Shown one piece after another: positions 580-15,275 of a stretch of 64,000 nt of DNA. Where the stretch lies: the NCBI RefSeq assembly GCF_003574315.2, contig NZ_AP025739.1:5022001-5086000 (forward strand). Reading direction: 5' to 3'. The position numbers were made by a program, and so were the translations under genes. The notes under the pieces were generated by a model. That model did not search any database. It worked only from the letters and a program-made list of their open reading frames with translations, and was not told the DNA's origin. Source of the stretch: Capsulimonas corticalis. GTDB lineage: Bacteria; Armatimonadota; Armatimonadia; Armatimonadales; Capsulimonadaceae. Position 1 is the stretch's first letter; each line of letters starts with the position of its first letter.

Positions 580-1398
580 TTATCGACCCCGTCGATAACC
601 TCCCCGCGGAACACTCGCCTGTGCGTGGCGCGGAGCGGACGGCCGCGAGGCCGTTTGATATCCTCGCTGGCGCAGTATCTCAAAGGCGAAGACCGCCGCC
701 GCCGCCGCCGTGCCCAGGGAATGGGCTTCCGGGCGCGCGTAGGGAATTTCCAACTGCATGTCGGCGCGGTCTTGAAACGAGCGCGTCACGCCGCGCTTTT
801 CACCCCCAATGAGCAAAAACAAGGGCTGGGTCAGGTCGTTCTCGTAAAGCGGGCGAGATCCAGGGCCGTCGCCGGCGCAGGCGATCAAATAACCGGCGGC
901 CCGGAAGGCGCTGGCGGCTTCTTCGGCTGTCTCGGCGATCGCCGTGGGGATTAATTCCGATGCGCCCGCTGAGGCGCGCGCTACGACGCCCGCCGCGCTC
1001 ATCCAGTTGCGTGGACGCACCACCAGGCCGCTTGCGCCCGCCGCATAGAGCGATCGGATCGAGGCGGCGAAGTTAAACGGATCCTCCACGCCGTCGATCA
1101 TCACGCACCAGCCGCATTTTTCTCCACTTGCAATCAAATCCTGCAGCGGCGCGAATTTGCGCTCGCCGACACTGGCGATGACCCCGCCGTGCGTCTTTCC
1201 CGTCACATAGGCGTCCAATGCTTCTTCCGACTCGCGCTTCACAAGGACGCCGCGCCGCTGGGCGTCCTGTTCCAGGCGGCGAATGGCGGGATCGTTCTTG
1301 TCGCCTCGAATGGCGATGAAGTGAATCGGGCGGCTGCCCGATTGAAGCGCGGCCGTGACGGAGATGGCGCCTTCCAAAATTGCGTTGTCGGTTTCCAT
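580..1398 (-). CDS. TrmH/SpoU-family RNA 2'-O-methyltransferase
   Basis: A 272-aa SPOUT methyltransferase expected to methylate a ribose 2'-OH in tRNA or rRNA using SAM. Residues ~8-78 look like the SpoU substrate-binding domain. Motif 1 is at ~102-122 (D-G-V-E-D-P-F-N-F), motif 2 is LIGGEKRGV (196-204), and motif 3 starts at IPYARPEAHSLG (218-229). In motif 3 the usual S-L-N-V-S is S-L-G-T-A, so the conserved Asn is replaced, as in some divergent TrmH-like branches. The C-terminal ~25 residues are basic and probably disordered. The ATG at 1398 has no visible Shine-Dalgarno sequence. A strong terminator lies just upstream on the same strand, so the gene needs its own promoter or read-through. 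Target RNA unknown. Confidence 0.8.
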   Translation of the reverse strand: METDNAILEGAISVTAALQSGSRPIHFIAIRGDKNDPAIRRLEQDAQRRGVLVKRESEEALDAYVTGKTHGGVIASVGERKFAPLQDLIASGEKCGWCVMIDGVEDPFNFAASIRSLYAAGASGLVVRPRNWMSAAGVVARASAGASELIPTAIAETAEEAASAFRAAGYLIACAGDGPGSRPLYENDLTQPLFLLIGGEKRGVTRSFQDRADMQLEIPYARPEAHSLGTAAAAAVFAFEILRQRGYQTASRPSAPRHAQASVPRGGYRRGR

Positions 1399-1457
1399 GG
1401 TTGTTGTGATCTTTGCGGTGTCGAGGGTGGGGGGAGTTTACCTGATTTTGCAGGAAA

Positions 1458-1489
1458 ACAAAAAAAGAACCGCGGTCTTTCGACCGCGG
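1458..1489 (-). terminator. Intrinsic terminator upstream of trmH-like gene
   Basis: On the minus strand an 8-bp stem, CCGCGGTC/GACCGCGG (1489-1482 and 1477-1470), is closed by a GAAA tetraloop and followed by a T-rich run (complement of 1458-1469). This is a textbook intrinsic terminator for leftward transcription. The only annotated leftward gene nearby starts at 1398, beyond it, so it must end a short upstream transcript. Confidence 0.85.
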
Positions 1490-1537
1490 CGTCAAGTTGG
1501 GGATGAGCAATGGGAGGTCATAACAACCTCAAGCCAC
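1458..1537 (-). ncRNA. Candidate Pho-controlled small RNA (~80 nt) or attenuated leader
   Basis: The segment runs from a predicted start near 1537 to the terminator at 1458-1489 and holds no convincing protein gene. Predicted structure is a 5' hairpin (GAGGT, 7-nt loop, ACCTC), a single-stranded stretch containing CCUCCC, and the terminator hairpin. The CCUCC run is complementary to Shine-Dalgarno sequences, so pairing with mRNA leaders is conceivable (inference). Its promoter carries four Pho-box repeats. It does not resemble 6S, tmRNA or the SRP RNA core. The alternative is a terminated leader of the trmH-like gene. Confidence 0.5.
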
Positions 1538-1543
1538 GACCCT

Positions 1544-1598
1544 ATTATGCCGTCTGGTTGTTAAGAGAACATTAAGGGCGGATTAAGTTTGCGTTAAA
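1544..1598 (-). promoter_or_regulatory. Four-repeat Pho box with -10 element (leftward)
   Basis: On the minus strand the 8-mers TTTAACGC, CTTAATCC, CTTAATGT and CTTAACAA are each separated by exactly 3 nt (plus-strand TTAA at 1561, 1572, 1583, 1594; 11-bp period). Eight nt later comes CATAAT (1549-1544). This is the layout of PhoB/SphR-type promoters, where direct repeats replace the -35. The last two repeats match the box before the porin at 9511 in 17 of 19 positions, with the same 8-nt gap to the -10. The orientation points away from the chemoreceptor. Confidence 0.75.
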
Positions 1599-5521: not shown

Positions 5522-6154
5522 ATGACGGTTATGTCCGATGTGACAACACAGGCGACTCTGGATAATGATGCAGCGCCCATTGCGTCGACCGATGCGGATC
5601 TCTTCGAACAGGAGATGAATCCGCATCTGGACGCGCTGTATCGCAACGCGATGCGTCTGACGGGGAACGCCAACGACGCCGAGGATTTGCTTCAGGATAC
5701 TTATCTGCGCGCGTTTCGCTTTTTTCACCAGTATCAGCTGGGAACTAATGCAAAAGCGTGGTTGTTCCGTATCATGAACACGGTATTTTTAAACGAGTAC
5801 CGTAAAAAAGCCCGGCAGGGAGAGACGATCTCCTACGACGGATTGGAAGATTTCTATCTTTACAATCGCCTGACGGATGACCTGGCCTCCGGGGATCGCC
5901 CGGAGATCGAGAATCCCCAAAAGGCGGTGTTAGAGAAGCTTGACATTGAGGTCATACAGCGCGCGATCGATGCGCTGCCCATTGAGTTCCGCGAGACGGT
6001 TGCGCTCGCCACATTGGAAGAGATGTCGTATCAAGAGATTGCGGATGCGCTGGACATCCCTGTAGGCACGGTGCGGTCACGCTTGTCGCGTGGACGCAAG
6101 CTGCTGCAGAAGGCCCTTTGGGCGTACCTCAACGGAGAAGAAACCCGTGGATGA
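5522..6154 (+). CDS. ECF sigma factor, SigR/ECF12-like
   Basis: A 210-aa group 4 sigma factor. Region 2 spans ~30-105: A-E-D-L-L-Q-D-T-Y for core binding, then G-T-N-A-K-A-W-L-F-R-I-M-N-T and N-E-Y-R-K-K-A-R. Region 4 spans ~150-205, with a helix-turn-helix at Y-Q-E-I-A-D-A-L-D-I-P-V-G-T-V-R-S-R. The GTN(x)KAWL(x)RI...YRKK signature is that of the actinobacterial SigR/SigH group, which answers thiol-oxidative stress. The next gene encodes a matching zinc anti-sigma. ATG 5522 (AGGA just upstream) and ATG 5531 are both possible starts. The downstream gene begins inside its stop region, so the two are coupled. Confidence 0.88.
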   Translation: MTVMSDVTTQATLDNDAAPIASTDADLFEQEMNPHLDALYRNAMRLTGNANDAEDLLQDTYLRAFRFFHQYQLGTNAKAWLFRIMNTVFLNEYRKKARQGETISYDGLEDFYLYNRLTDDLASGDRPEIENPQKAVLEKLDIEVIQRAIDALPIEFRETVALATLEEMSYQEIADALDIPVGTVRSRLSRGRKLLQKALWAYLNGEETRG

Positions 6155-6431
6155 GCAAGTGAAAAAGACCGGCGCGTGCGTCGGGATCGATTATTATTCG
6201 TGTGAAGAAGCGATCAAGCGTCTTAACGAGTATCTGGACCACCAACTGACCGAAGAAGAGCGGGTTGTGGTGCTGAAGCATCTGGAGATCTGTAAGCCCT
6301 GCTTTAGCCGGTTCAGTTTCGAGCAGAACCTGATCGTCTCGGTGCGCGCGAAGCTCACCAAGATCTGCGCGCCGCAGCCGCTGCGCGAAAAGCTGCGGGG
6401 ACTGCTGCGTTCGGAAGATCGATTGATCTGA
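6147..6431 (+). CDS. Zinc-binding anti-sigma factor, RsrA-like
   Basis: A 94-aa soluble protein starting at GTG 6147, with GGAG upstream and overlapping the sigma stop (6152-6154). It carries H45-L-E-I-C49-K-P-C52, the H-x3-C-x2-C core of zinc anti-sigma (ZAS) proteins. A further Cys at position 19 sits 26 residues before the His, the same spacing I recall for C11-H37 of RsrA. L-N-E-Y-L-D and F-S-F-E-Q are further RsrA-like positions. No membrane segment is seen, so it should act in the cytoplasm. By analogy, disulfide formation would release zinc and free the sigma factor. Redox sensing is inferred from the family. Confidence 0.8.
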   Translation: MDEQVKKTGACVGIDYYSCEEAIKRLNEYLDHQLTEEERVVVLKHLEICKPCFSRFSFEQNLIVSVRAKLTKICAPQPLREKLRGLLRSEDRLI

Positions 6432-9510: not shown

Positions 9511-9543
9511 CTTAATATTCTCTTAACATTCGCACAGTAAACT
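9511..9543 (+). promoter_or_regulatory. Pho-box promoter of SLH porin (and pst) genes
   Basis: CTTAATAT (9511-9518), tct, CTTAACAT (9522-9529), then 8 nt and TAAACT (9538-9543) as a -10. The two 8-mers with 3-nt spacer give the 11-bp period of Pho boxes. The sequence and the 8-nt gap match the four-repeat box at 1544-1598. Predicted start near 9550, leaving a ~90-nt leader before the GTG. Confidence 0.7.
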
Positions 9544-9639
9544 CGTGGCTGTTATGATGTCGATCCGCGACGCGCATGCCCGCTGATTTTTCAAGCCGGC
9601 ATGGCGATACGACGGATCATCGAGATCGAGGAGGATTTT

Positions 9640-11298
9640 GTGAAAAACTGGAACACCGCTATTGCGCTCGGCGCGCTGGCCGTGGGAGCTGTTGTCGCCG
9701 CTCCCGCCGCGCAGGCGCAGGGAACCTCGTTCCCGGATGTCCCGCAGAACCACTGGGCTTACACGTCGGTGCAGAGCCTTGCGGATAAAGGCCTTGTCAA
9801 GGGATATCCCAATGGGCAGTTCCTGGGCAACCGCGCGCTGACCCGCTATGAGTTCGCGACCGTTGTCGATCGTCTCCTTCAGACTATTGCCGATATGAAG
9901 AGCGGCGCCACGCCGACAAACGCCGTCACGCAGGACGATCTGAACAAGATCCAGGTCCTCGTGGACAGCTTCAAGACCGAATTGACCGCGATCCAGGCCG
10001 ACGTGACCAAGGCGCAAGCCGACATCGCCGAACTTCGCGGCAATGTCGAGGACCTTCGCCAGGACGTTCTGGACACCAAGGACCTCGCGAACAAAGCGCA
10101 GGACACCGCGAATAATTCGTACGGCGTCGGCGCGAAGCGCAAATTCCAGATCAGCGGCTACATCCAGGCGCGTTACTTCGATGCGACCGGCAGCGATAAC
10201 CAGGATCCCAAGAGCGTCAATCACCTCACCTATCCGCACGGCAAGGTTCCCGGCAACAGCCCTTACAACGGCACCTACGCTTCAGGGTCTAACGGGGCCT
10301 CCTTCATCGTTCGCCGCTCGCGCCTCAAGTTCACTGGCCAGCTGACGCAGAATACCCGCTACGCCATTCAGCTCGACGCATCGGGCTTCGCCAGTCCCAC
10401 GAGCACCCCGAACAGCAGCAACGCATCGAGCAACGCCGCGGTCAGCGTCCGTGAGGGCAATGCGACCTATGCGTTCGGCAATGGCGATCCCGCCAAGAAC
10501 CTGAGCATCACCGCCGGTATGTTCGCCAACCCGTTTGGTTACATTCTGCCGCTCTCGTCCGCCTCGACGATCCAGGCCGAACGGCCGCTTGCCTTCAACG
10601 AAGGCGGGCAGGGCTTGTTCGCCAACCAGGACTACGATCGCGGCGTACAGGTCGCGGGCGTCGCCGGTCCGGTCAAGTACACGGTCGCATTGGTCAACGG
10701 CACCGGTCTTGCCAGCAACGACACCGACCGACAGGTCGACCAGATCTATCGCCTCGCCTATCAGACGGGCGACAAGAAGCTGGGCGTTGGCGCTTCCTTC
10801 TACAACGGACACGTTGCGGATTACTCCAATACTGGAGCGGCCTACACCTCGCGCAAAAAGCAGCTGACCGGCGCGGACGTTCAGTACAACCCGACAGCGA
10901 ATATCTTCCTGAACGGCGAATACGTCGAAGGTAAGTTCGAGCAGCGGACCGCCTATGCTGGTCTCAACCAAGGCGCGCTTGCGTTGGCAACGACCTACGC
11001 ACCCGGCAATAAGATCGAAGGCTACTACGCGCTGGGCGGCTACAGCTTCAGCCCTGCCGGTACACATACACTGACCCTGGCCGCGAGCTACGATGAGTTC
11101 AACCGCGCTAAGAGCGGCGCCGGCAGCAACAGCTCGTACACGGACAAGAACTTCGGCTATGGCGCGCTTTACAACTTGGACAAGTCCACCCGCCTGCGCT
11201 TGTGGTACACCAAGCCCAATAAAGTCGCCCACGCTCCCGGCGCCGTTGATCCGGAGAAGGTTGGCCTGTTCGTAAGCGAACTTCAGGTCAAGTTCTAA
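9640..11298 (+). CDS. SLH-domain outer-membrane porin
   Basis: Start chosen at GTG 9640: AGGAGG (9629-9634) is 5 nt upstream, and the protein then begins with a clean signal peptide (K-N-W-N-T-A then a hydrophobic core, cleavage after A-Q-A, residue 26). Residues ~29-85 are an SLH domain (F-P-D-V-P-Q-N-H-W-A, G-Y-P-N-G-Q-F). About 100-155 is a coiled coil. About 165-552 is a beta-barrel with alternating strands, ending in Phe as outer-membrane proteins do. This is the OmpM/SomA/SlpA type, tethering the outer membrane to the cell wall. A Pho box upstream and pstSCAB downstream suggest a phosphate-induced porin (inference). Substrate not determinable by eye. Confidence 0.9.
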   Translation: MKNWNTAIALGALAVGAVVAAPAAQAQGTSFPDVPQNHWAYTSVQSLADKGLVKGYPNGQFLGNRALTRYEFATVVDRLLQTIADMKSGATPTNAVTQDDLNKIQVLVDSFKTELTAIQADVTKAQADIAELRGNVEDLRQDVLDTKDLANKAQDTANNSYGVGAKRKFQISGYIQARYFDATGSDNQDPKSVNHLTYPHGKVPGNSPYNGTYASGSNGASFIVRRSRLKFTGQLTQNTRYAIQLDASGFASPTSTPNSSNASSNAAVSVREGNATYAFGNGDPAKNLSITAGMFANPFGYILPLSSASTIQAERPLAFNEGGQGLFANQDYDRGVQVAGVAGPVKYTVALVNGTGLASNDTDRQVDQIYRLAYQTGDKKLGVGASFYNGHVADYSNTGAAYTSRKKQLTGADVQYNPTANIFLNGEYVEGKFEQRTAYAGLNQGALALATTYAPGNKIEGYYALGGYSFSPAGTHTLTLAASYDEFNRAKSGAGSNSSYTDKNFGYGALYNLDKSTRLRLWYTKPNKVAHAPGAVDPEKVGLFVSELQVKF

Positions 11299-11331
11299 CA
11301 TCGCAATCGCAATCAGATAAGGCGATCACAG

Positions 11332-11356
11332 GGATGGCCGCGGATCGCGGCCATCC
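11332..11356 (+). terminator. Intercistronic hairpin between porin and pstS
   Basis: GGATGGCCGCG (11332-11342) pairs perfectly with CGCGGCCATCC (11346-11356). No U-run follows, so it more likely acts as a stability or processing element than a full terminator. It leaves porin-pst co-transcription possible. Confidence 0.45.
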
Positions 11357-11387
11357 ACAGCCTTCGAATTTTAGGAGTCCTCTTTCC

Positions 11388-12386
11388 ATGTTCTTCAATA
11401 AGCTGAACAAAATCGCGGCGACGGCGCTGGCTCTCACGAGCCTGCTGGCCGCCGGCGCGCACGCCCAGAGCCTTACCGGCGCGGGCGCGACGTTCCCCGC
11501 TCCGCTGTACCAGAAGTGGTTCCAACAGTACAAGGCGAAAACCGGCGCTGAGATCAACTATCAGGCCATCGGCTCCGGCGGCGGCATCAAAGCCATCACC
11601 GCTCGCTCCGTCGACTTCGGCGCGTCCGACGCTCCGATGTCCGACGCCGAGCTCGCCAAGGCGCCCGGCGTCATCCACATCCCGACCGTTGCGGGCGCCG
11701 TCGTCGTCGCTTACAACGTTCCCGGCGTGGGCCCCGGCATTAAGCTGACCCAGGACGTGATCGCCGACATCTTCCTTGGCAAGATCACCAAGTGGGACGA
11801 TGGCCGCATCGCCAAGCTGAACCCTGGAACGAAGTTCCCGAGCACCGGCATCGCGCCGTTCCACCGCTCCGACGGCTCCGGAACCACGAACATCTTCACC
11901 ACGTTCCTGTCGGAAGTCAGCGGCGATTGGAAAGACCAGGTCGGCGCCGGCAAGTCGGTCAAGTGGGTCAAGGGACTCGGCGGCAAGGGTAACCCGGGCG
12001 TCGCCGCTCTGATCAAGCAGACCGAAGGCGGCATCGGCTACATCGAGCTGGCCTACGCCGTCACGAACGTCATCCCGTACGCGGCTGTCCGCAACGCCAA
12101 GGGCAACTTCATCTACCCGAGCGTCGCTTCGACCACCGCGGCCGCCGACGGATCCACGCTGCCTGCGGACTTCCGCAAGGTCATCACCAACACCAAGGCT
12201 GCGCAGGGCTATCCGATCACCGGCTTCACCTTCCTGCTGGTCTACCGCGACTCCAAGCCGGAACTGAAGAAGTTCCTGCAGTGGGCGCTGACCGACGGAC
12301 AGAGCCAGGCGGACGACCTGCTGTACGCCAAGCTGCCCGATAGCGTTCAGAAGCGCGCTTTGGCCGCTGTCGCGTCGCTCAAGTAG
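11388..12386 (+). CDS. pstS: Periplasmic phosphate-binding protein PstS
   Basis: Start at ATG 11388 (AGGAG upstream), giving a 332-aa precursor with a Sec signal peptide (cleavage after A-H-A) and no lipobox Cys. This fits a freely periplasmic protein in a diderm. Phosphate-site motifs are GAGATFPAPLY, I-G-S-G-G-G, F-G-A-S-D-A-P-M and R-S-D-G-S-G-T-T. It delivers phosphate to PstCA. First gene of pstSCAB, separated from pstC by a terminator-like hairpin, which should favour excess PstS over the transporter. Confidence 0.97.
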   Translation: MFFNKLNKIAATALALTSLLAAGAHAQSLTGAGATFPAPLYQKWFQQYKAKTGAEINYQAIGSGGGIKAITARSVDFGASDAPMSDAELAKAPGVIHIPTVAGAVVVAYNVPGVGPGIKLTQDVIADIFLGKITKWDDGRIAKLNPGTKFPSTGIAPFHRSDGSGTTNIFTTFLSEVSGDWKDQVGAGKSVKWVKGLGGKGNPGVAALIKQTEGGIGYIELAYAVTNVIPYAAVRNAKGNFIYPSVASTTAAADGSTLPADFRKVITNTKAAQGYPITGFTFLLVYRDSKPELKKFLQWALTDGQSQADDLLYAKLPDSVQKRALAAVASLK

Positions 12387-12395
12387 TCTTTCATG

Positions 12396-12433
12396 GTCCG
12401 CAAGCGCAGCACTTTCGCGCTTGCGGACTTTTT
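12396..12433 (+). terminator. Attenuator-type terminator between pstS and pstC
   Basis: A 12-bp perfect stem (12396-12407 with 12417-12428), 9-nt loop, then TTTTT. Being inside the operon, it should end part of the transcription after pstS. Confidence 0.8.
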
Positions 12434-12488
12434 GGCGCATCAAGCGCCTCCCCAATCGGGTGGGAAACGACCCGAAACTACGGTGGAT

Positions 12489-13514
12489 ATGACAACAACA
12501 CCAATCAACTCACCTTCCGCGGCTTCTTCATCGCCTAAGAAACTCGTGTTTCCCAAGGCGTCGTTTTCCATTCGCTACGGCGACCGAATTTACGCCGCCA
12601 TTACCTTCTTGGCGTCCCTCAGCATCTTTGGCATCATTGTCTGGCTCGCCGTCCAGCTGTCCAGCGCGAGCTCGGAATCGATCCACAAATTCGGATGGGG
12701 CTATATCACCAAATCGACGTGGGATGAAACGACCGATGTCTATGGGATCCTCCCTTATATCTTCGGCACCCTTTATTCCTCGTTCCTGGCCCTGCTGATC
12801 GCCGTGCCGATCAGTATCGGCTCCGCGGTTTTCCTCTCGGAACTTGCGCCGAAATGGCTGCGCACTCCGATGACTTTTTTGATCGAGCTCCTCGCCGCCA
12901 TTCCCAGTGTCGTGTATGGTCTCTGGGGAATTTTTGTGATGCTGCCGTGGCTCAAAGACCACGTCATGCACCCAATCGCGAACTCCCGAATTCCGCATAT
13001 CCCGATCCTCGGAGGACTCTTCTCCGGTGAGGCGATCGGTCCGAGCATGATGGCCGCCGGAATCATTCTGGCGATCATGGTCATTCCGTTTATCACCGCA
13101 GTGACGCGCGATATTCTGAAGGCGATCCCGAAGGCGCAGCGCGAAGGCTCATACGGCCTGGGAGCGACCCAGTGGGAGACGATCAGCCGTGTCGTGATTC
13201 CGTTCGCAAAGTCCGGTATCGTCGGCGCCGTGATGCTTGGCCTCGGCCGGGCGCTCGGCGAGACGATGGCGGTCACGATGCTGATCGGCAACCAGCCGCC
13301 CAGCACGCCGAACGGCATCTCGTTCTCGCTGTTCCAGCCCGGATATACGATGTCCAGCGCATTGGCGAACAAGTTCAATGAGGCCGGACCTGGTCTGAAC
13401 ACCTCCGCGCTGGTGGAGATCGGCCTTGTGCTGTTCTTCGTCACGATCGTCGTCAACATGGCGGCGCGCCTCCTGGTGTTCTACACGGCAAAGGATGTGG
13501 CTGGTGGTAAATAA
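12489..13514 (+). CDS. pstC: Phosphate ABC transporter permease PstC
   Basis: A ~341-aa inner-membrane permease starting at ATG 12489 (M-T-T-T-P-I-N-S), with a ~35-aa polar N-terminus and about six membrane helices. The EAA loop that contacts PstB is seen as E-G-S-Y-G-L-G-A-T-Q-W-E-T. G-R-A-L-G-E-T-M-A-V is the conserved family stretch with the Arg and Glu important for transport. An in-frame ATG at 12393 would lie in the terminator hairpin and is unlikely. The 3' end overlaps pstA. Confidence 0.95.
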   Translation: MTTTPINSPSAASSSPKKLVFPKASFSIRYGDRIYAAITFLASLSIFGIIVWLAVQLSSASSESIHKFGWGYITKSTWDETTDVYGILPYIFGTLYSSFLALLIAVPISIGSAVFLSELAPKWLRTPMTFLIELLAAIPSVVYGLWGIFVMLPWLKDHVMHPIANSRIPHIPILGGLFSGEAIGPSMMAAGIILAIMVIPFITAVTRDILKAIPKAQREGSYGLGATQWETISRVVIPFAKSGIVGAVMLGLGRALGETMAVTMLIGNQPPSTPNGISFSLFQPGYTMSSALANKFNEAGPGLNTSALVEIGLVLFFVTIVVNMAARLLVFYTAKDVAGGK

Positions 13515-14424
13515 CTCGACAGCAGTCAAGCCCCATCGCAGCAACGTCACCCAGCGCAAGATCGCGAACCGCATCATGCTGACCCTCTGCATGCTGGCGT
13601 CTCTCGCGGCCGTCACGGTGCTGGGACTGGTGCTGTTTTTCCTGGTCTCGAAGGGTTTCTCTTCGATCAACCTCAACTTCTTCACCAAGCTGCCCAACCA
13701 CGTGGACGAAAAAGCCGGCGGCATGTCGCAGTCCATTTATGGTACACTGGTGCTGTTAGGACTGGCGTCGCTGATCGGTCTGCCCCTGGGCATTCTCGGC
13801 GGCATCTACCAGCTGGAGGCGAAGGGCAAGTTCGCGATGATCGTCCGCTTCTTTACGGACGTTCTGAATGGAATTCCCTCGATCGTTATCGGCATCTTCG
13901 TCTATGCGATCTGGGTCTATCCAGAAGCGCAGCGGCATCCTGGAACGGGGTACTCGGCTTACGCCGGAGGCTTCGCGCTGGGAATCATGATGATCCCGAC
14001 GATCATGCGCACCACGGAAGAGATTTTGCGGCTGGTGCCGTTCTCGATGCGTGAGGCGTCTTTGGGCCTGGGAGCCACTCGATGGCGCACAATGTGGAGC
14101 GTCGTCCTTCCGACCGCGCGAGGAGGCGTCATTACCGGCATCATGCTGGCGCTCGCGCGAATCGCGGGTGAAACGGCGCCGCTGCTCTTTACCGTATTAG
14201 GGAATGAGTTCTTCGTCACGCACAAGGTCTTTGGGATCAAGGTTCCCACGCTCACCGCGCCGATCGACGCGCTGCCCCTGCGCATCTACAACTATGCAAC
14301 GGCGGTCGATCCCGACCAGCAGCGTATGGCGTGGGCAGGCGCCGTGGTGTTGATCACGCTGATCCTCGTTCTGAGCATCGCCGCGCGAACGGCGACACGC
14401 GGCAAGGTTCTGGAAGAAAAATAA
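13504..14424 (+). CDS. pstA: Phosphate ABC transporter permease PstA
   Basis: The second permease subunit, about 306 aa if it starts at GTG 13504 (AAAGGA 8 nt upstream, inside pstC); ATG 13495 is also in frame. Six predicted helices. The EAA loop is [14 protein letters not shown]. The motif [12 protein letters not shown] parallels the Arg/Glu segment of PstC. With PstC it forms the channel through the inner membrane. Translationally coupled to pstC on one side and 3 nt from pstB on the other. Confidence 0.95.
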
Positions 14425-14426
14425 CC

Positions 14427-15275
14427 ATGACAAACATCGTATCCAACGAAAAGCAGACGCCGCCGGCGCTTTCCAGGCCCGTCGTCAAGCCTCCGACGCC
14501 CGACGCCAACCGCGTTGCGTCAAAGTCCAAGATCGTCGCTAAGGACGTCGACTTCTACTACGGCGACTTCCACGCGCTGAAGAAGATCAACATCGTCGTC
14601 CCGGAGCATCAAGTCACGGCGTTAATCGGACCGTCGGGCTGCGGCAAATCGACCTTCCTGCGGACCTTGAACCGCATGAACGATTTGATCGACGGCACGC
14701 GCCTCACAGGCTCCATCACGCTGGACGGGCAGGATATCTACGACCGCACTCGCGATGTCGTCGGACTGCGCAAAACGGTCGGCATGGTCTTCCAAAAGCC
14801 TAATCCGTTCCCGATGTCCATCTACGATAATATCTGCTACGGCCCGCGCATCCATGGGATCCGCAACCGCAAGATGCTCGACGAGACCGTCGAGCGCACC
14901 CTGCGCGGCGCGGCCCTGTGGGAAGAAGTGAAGGACAAGCTGCACAAGTCGGCGTTCGCCCTTTCCGGCGGCCAGCAGCAGCGCCTTTGTATCGCCCGCG
15001 TTCTCGCCGTCGAACCCGACGTCATCCTGATGGATGAGCCCTGCTCGGCGCTGGACCCGAACAGCACCTTCCGCATCGAGCAGTTGATGGAAGATCTGCG
15101 CGGCCATTATACGATCGTCATCGTCACGCACAACATGCAGCAAGCGGCGCGCGTCTCTCAGCAGACGGGCTTCTTCCTGCGCGGCGAGCTGCGCGAGTTC
15201 GACGATACAAGCACCATCTTCACCAACCCTTCGGACGAAGAAACCGAGGCTTACGTCTCGGGCCGGTTCGGTTGA
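14427..15275 (+). CDS. pstB: Phosphate ABC transporter ATPase PstB
   Basis: A 282-aa ATPase powering PstCA. ATG 14427 (M-T-N-I-V-S-N) leaves a ~35-aa polar N-terminus before the nucleotide-binding domain. Walker A is GPSGCGKST, the Q loop is [10 protein letters not shown] (the PstB-specific form), the signature is L-S-G-G-Q-Q-Q-R, Walker B is V-I-L-M-D-E-P, and the switch His is in V-T-H-N-M. The operon ends here with a strong terminator. No phoU follows, which is unusual for a pst operon. Confidence 0.97.

Follow-up and report, generated by a model that had tools for sequence, protein, structure and literature searches.

The cyanobacterial SphR box is an 8-bp motif, CTTAACCT, found in at least three tandem copies with 3-bp linkers (PMC1906773), and in Synechocystis the TTAA cores of the box are required for PhoB binding (PMC11126600). 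Among small RNAs, three described systems are closest to the locus considered here. Yfr1, a C-rich cyanobacterial sRNA of 54–69 nt, has two stem-loops flanking an unpaired stretch and a constant 11-nt motif (PMC2190773). PsiR1 is a phosphate-stress-induced transcript of Synechocystis 6803, which is missing even from Synechocystis 6714 (PMC5386190) and is therefore poorly conserved. EsrL, a phosphate-induced sRNA of enteropathogenic E. coli, is reported to be under PhoB control, and PhoB binding was not seen in K-12 ChIP-seq (cited in PMC10294691).

In the window (the whole 64,000-nucleotide stretch of DNA that was analysed), the minus strand from 1598 to 1460 carries, in this order, four YTTAAY 8-mers spaced exactly 11 bp apart, a gap of 8 nt, CATAAT, some 78 nt and a terminator (Table 1). 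We suggest that this unit is quite probably a stand-alone non-coding RNA gene of about 78 nt, representing a new family of Pho-regulated, trans-acting sRNAs that pair with mRNAs and have a Yfr1-like build. The preliminary description had claimed the four 8-mers, their spacing and a minus-strand −10 placed 8 nt further on, and all of these are read directly at 1598–1544. Even when three mismatches are tolerated, an array of four boxes occurs once in the 64 kb window and never in 100 dinucleotide shuffles, and thus exceeds chance. As in a Pho box, where at least three tandem TTAA-core 8-mers with an 11-bp period are expected, there are four such boxes in the window and three or four in each of the six genomes carrying the unit.

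Table 1. Features of the predicted RNA gene and its surroundings (window coordinates).
Feature	Position	Strand	Basis or remark
trmH-like SpoU RNA methyltransferase, downstream neighbour outside the RNA gene	580..1398	-	PF00588, 5.7e-22; ATG at 1398
Putative own -10 of trmH, TAAACT, past the terminator	1435..1440	-	inferred
Intrinsic terminator, stem 1490-1469, GAAA loop, U-tract to 1460	1460..1490	-	
Predicted small RNA, ~78 nt	1460..1537	-	start inferred ~7 nt past the -10, give or take a few nt
Conserved stretch CAUUGCUCAUCCCC, proposed seed; part between the hairpins UGCUCAUCCCC	1499..1512	-	
5' hairpin, outer stem GUGG/CCAU, inner stem GAGGU/ACCUC, variable loop of 6-7 nt	1510..1537	-	
-10 element CATAAT	1544..1549	-	8 nt past the last box
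Gap between last box and -10, 8 nt	1557-1550	-	
Array of four Pho boxes (YTTAAY 8-mers, 11-bp period)	1558..1598	-	sequence, shuffle control, six genomes
Pho box CTTAACAA	1565-1558	-	
Pho box CTTAATGT	1576-1569	-	
Pho box CTTAATCC	1587-1580	-	
Pho box TTTAACGC	1598-1591	-	
Upstream of the SLH-porin/pst operon: Pho boxes CTTAATAT and CTTAACAT, gap of 8 nt, TAAACT	9511..9543	+	validates box type

The type of the boxes can be judged from the genes at which they occur. The two promoter-proximal boxes, CTTAATGTTCTCTTAACAA, agree with CTTAATATTCTCTTAACAT (9511–9529) in 17 of 19 bases, and the 9511 site has the same 8-nt gap to its TAAACT, exactly as was claimed at the outset. This site lies upstream of an SLH porin with a match to phosphate-selective porins, which is followed by PstS (PBP_like_2). 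Two further genes occupy the places of pstC and pstA (assigned by position), besides PstB, whose match to TIGR00972 (406 bits) is the only one above the cut-off in the genome. As a separate observation, the first gene of the pst operon (window 9511–15275) is apparently the one for the SLH-domain porin, which matches phosphate-selective porin O/P in Pfam and stands behind a Pho box.

A motif scan of the genome had been proposed as a check in the preliminary description. When three boxes at 11-bp spacing were sought, seven exact matches turned up, at five places, and 26 matches once two mismatches were tolerated; since the reversed control pattern gave 17 matches at the latter threshold, single two-mismatch matches are weak. 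Among the genes adjoining the arrays are an alkaline phosphatase (PF00245) operon, PF04185 phosphoesterases, a calcineurin-type phosphoesterase (metallophosphatase) and several DUF1559 pseudopilins, so that, together with the pst operon at 9511, the same motif stands at phosphate genes of the same genome. Because the arrays sit at phosphate genes and the motif equals the cyanobacterial SphR box, the assignment of the four elements as putative Pho boxes is well supported by association. Like the cyanobacterial SphR/PhoB sites, they are tandem 8-mers equal to CTTAACCT with 3-bp linkers and TTAA cores; the differences are that the host here belongs to Armatimonadota, that the gap to the −10 is 8 nt and that the regulator is a putative one.

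The DUF1559 pseudopilin genes deserve separate mention. They were repeatedly found behind Pho-box arrays, at L056, L061, L068 and L077 in G000, where they were confirmed by Pfam, and also at L192:6163-6271 in G006 and L193:4930 in G002. Some of them adjoin phosphoesterase genes. This location suggests phosphate-regulated pseudopilins for secretion or surface display of phosphatases.

The 85-nt strand folds better than 200 of 200 shuffles (z −4.2). A GAAA-loop terminator had been claimed about 80 nt past the start, with the trmH-like gene beginning only thereafter, and both the stem and the trmH start codon (1398) are found accordingly. The terminator hairpin is GC-rich with the tail TTCTTTTTTT, and across the six genomes eight of its nine pairs have changes on both sides with 100% pairing retained, though its sequence differs between genera. 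The outer stem of the 5′ hairpin is retained, in G002 with AUGG/CCAU and in G005 with GUGG/CCAC; this hairpin varies little, and little covariation is consequently seen there. Over the whole structure, two-sided changes occur in 9 of 18 pairs and 99% of cells are paired, a level that 0 of 500 shuffles reach. These figures lean somewhat towards the structure model, to which the alignment of six rows had been fitted. Sliding the partners as a control lowers pairing to 42–59%.

Between the hairpins lies an exposed, unchanging stretch, UUGCUCAUCCC(C), also given as UGCUCAUCCC(C), and the exposed seed of the RNA is UUGCUCAUCCCC. As expected of a trans-acting sRNA, the seed is highly conserved and accessible: CAUUGCUCAUC is identical in all six genomes, whereas loops, linkers and the terminator sequence vary, and in computed ensembles it is mostly unpaired (in G000, G001 and G004 a part of it is only about 50–80% unpaired). 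The CCUCC stretch, earlier proposed as possibly masking ribosome-binding sites, turned out to be mostly paired, mainly within the 5′ hairpin, and it is UUGCUCAUCCCC that is exposed instead.

This architecture resembles Yfr1, in that two stem-loops, the 3′ one being the terminator, surround an unpaired stretch with a constant motif. However, the motif is ACUCCUCACAC in Yfr1 and CAUUGCUCAUC here, Yfr1 is described without Pho control, and no homology between the two is shown; with the ultraconserved ACUCCUCACAC absent and UUGCUCAUCCCC as its exposed stretch, the RNA does not belong to the Yfr1 family. PsiR1 is likened to it by description and not by sequence: it is a phosphate-induced small transcript (induction being predicted here) from a bacterium whose Pho boxes are of the YTTAAY type. 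EsrL shares the reported PhoB control (Pho control is predicted here) but differs in its gamma-proteobacterial host and in its Pho box. The unit is a new RNA family of an already known kind, with Yfr1-like architecture, predicted PsiR1/EsrL-like control and an exposed motif unlike that of Yfr1.

The unit was found in six of the seven genomes of the family, one copy each, that is, in six species. By genus labels these represent four genera (g1, g2, g4 and g5, of which g1 and g2 contribute two genomes apiece), or five if the window's own genus is counted with its sister. In the DNA search of relatives, the same-genus copy showed 87% identity over about 158 nt, and copies were found in other genera too. 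Each of the six genomes has three or four boxes, the identical 8-nt gap, a −10-like hexamer (CATAAT, CATAAT, CATAAT, TATAAT, CAGAAT and TATACT), an RNA of 73–78 nt, the 5′ hairpin, CAUUGCUCAUC and the terminator. In G005 the promoter and RNA are intact between rpe (ribulose-phosphate 3-epimerase) and an unrelated gene. In the seventh genome, G003, which is 87% complete, the unit was not found, which may reflect absence, divergence or incomplete assembly.

A lack of conservation of box, hairpin and terminator in related genomes had been named as grounds for giving up the idea of a phosphate-starvation small RNA. All three were kept in six genomes together with the 8-nt spacing, once at another locus, and the boxes are those of the pst and phosphatase genes; the idea is therefore supported as a prediction from sequence, though not the active role given to CCUCC.

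When models R1 and R2 were run over 291 genomes of the phylum, and R2 over 19 genomes of the order, no convincing member appeared outside the family. The matches were weak (E about 1e-5 or worse) and, where inspected, proved to be terminators, one of them behind the groEL-like 3′ end of a gene in family f28, or a tRNA plus terminator in G007. The f28 genomes (L030:1501-1549, L028-L037) have a strongly conserved C-rich stretch and terminator after the groEL-like 3′ end, a false positive for the model, yet a conserved element in itself. When 84,980 species genomes were scanned for the exact pattern, only five stretches came back, every one from Armatimonadetes/Capsulimonadaceae, and the same pattern had no match in the viral contigs scanned. 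Rfam 15 had no match in the window, and the best weak match in the relatives' loci reached 28.3 of 75 bits, far under the cut-off. In agreement with the initial statement that no such sRNA is known to be described in the phylum, the open-access literature searched yielded no description of any sRNA from it.

Based on these features, we propose the following course of events. Under phosphate starvation, a PhoB/SphR-type response regulator would bind the tandem YTTAAY boxes, which would stand in for a −35 element, and transcription would begin just past CATAAT. The RNA would end at its own terminator, so that trmH would be transcribed separately. The folded RNA would present UUGCUCAUCCCC largely unpaired, with the 5′ hairpin on one side and the terminator hairpin on the other, and the exposed stretch would most likely pair with translation initiation regions of mRNAs and repress them. 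Its perfect partner is GGGGAUGAGCAAUGG, which resembles a Shine–Dalgarno sequence followed by a start codon; from this form we infer repression of translation by base pairing.

Target searches bear on this mechanism. The 15-nt complement with two mismatches or fewer was searched in seven genomes and gave no target common to several genera. Neither GGGATGAG or GATGAGCA upstream of ATG, sought in the seven genomes, nor a duplex scan of 120 start regions revealed a target conserved among genera. Recurrent matches (FliP-like, ABC ATPase, SDR and transposase, named by eye from short peptides) look like coding coincidences, and others are restricted to the close pair G006/G002. The RNA might instead bind a protein or act on another small RNA as a sponge. 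Such a role would suit both the outcome of these searches and the constancy of the single-stranded stretch, but it leaves aside that the exact complement of the stretch is laid out as a ribosome-binding site and start codon, and that Yfr1, which has a matching architecture, was proposed to act by base pairing (PMC2190773). We consider it unlikely.

The best single lead was traced to orthologs. It is a perfect 10-nt complementarity (UUGCUCAUCC with GGAUGAGCAA) between the seed and the start of an anti-sigma gene at 6147–6158, about 4.6 kb away, of which G004, G006 and G002 retain 7–8 nt. At GUGGAUGAGCAAG (6139–6160) the ECF sigma gene (5522–6154) runs into the zf-HC2 anti-sigma gene (from 6147); this overlap, to which the sRNA seed is complementary, is retained in several relatives. 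Since the site also contains part of the sigma gene's end with its stop codon, its conservation is explained without the RNA. The lead was judged weak, and it is highly doubtful that the RNA couples phosphate starvation to the ECF sigma factor through this site. If it did, starvation would lower the anti-sigma factor and the sigma factor would be freed.

The unit might also be the 5′ leader of trmH, with a Pho-regulated promoter and an attenuator or riboswitch-like terminator governing read-through into the methyltransferase gene. trmH lies directly downstream in five of the six genomes, hence some read-through into it is possible, and an attenuator would likewise have its terminator placed between promoter and gene. 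However, the G005 copy has no trmH downstream; in five genomes a separate −10-like hexamer follows the terminator (TAAACT, TAAACT, TAAGAT, TACACT and TACAAT, each preceded by GG); no antiterminator pairing is apparent, and the minimum-energy fold always contains the full terminator; and no Rfam leader family matches. Being intact away from trmH in G005, the unit is an independent gene. An independent RNA gene accounts for the lack of a conserved ORF, the G005 locus and the second −10, whereas an attenuator of trmH fails on G005, and we give the leader little credence. At the other end of trmH, a 15-bp palindromic stem (525–557) separates it from a convergent HNH-type gene and is probably a shared bidirectional terminator.

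A tiny mRNA for a nine-residue peptide (ATG ACC TCC CAT TGC TCA TCC CCA ACT TGA, MTSHCSSPT) is extremely improbable and was rejected, for this ATG with its well-placed GAGG Shine–Dalgarno is present only in the window and G001, while the ATG is missing in G004, G006, G002 and G005, where single-base indels occur yet the CAUUGCUCAUC nucleotides are unchanged. By its sequence, the unit has its own promoter and intrinsic terminator, is short and contains no conserved ORF, as would be expected of a trans-acting sRNA gene.

Phosphate-induced sRNAs are few in the literature searched, and PsiR1 is not shared even by a sister strain. The sRNA predicted here is conserved across genera, in a phylum without a described sRNA in that literature. 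Since its promoter, boundaries and seed are all defined, direct testing is possible in the cultured genus Capsulimonas. Furthermore, the use of the cyanobacterial type of Pho box by a family of Armatimonadota offers a handle on its whole phosphate regulon.
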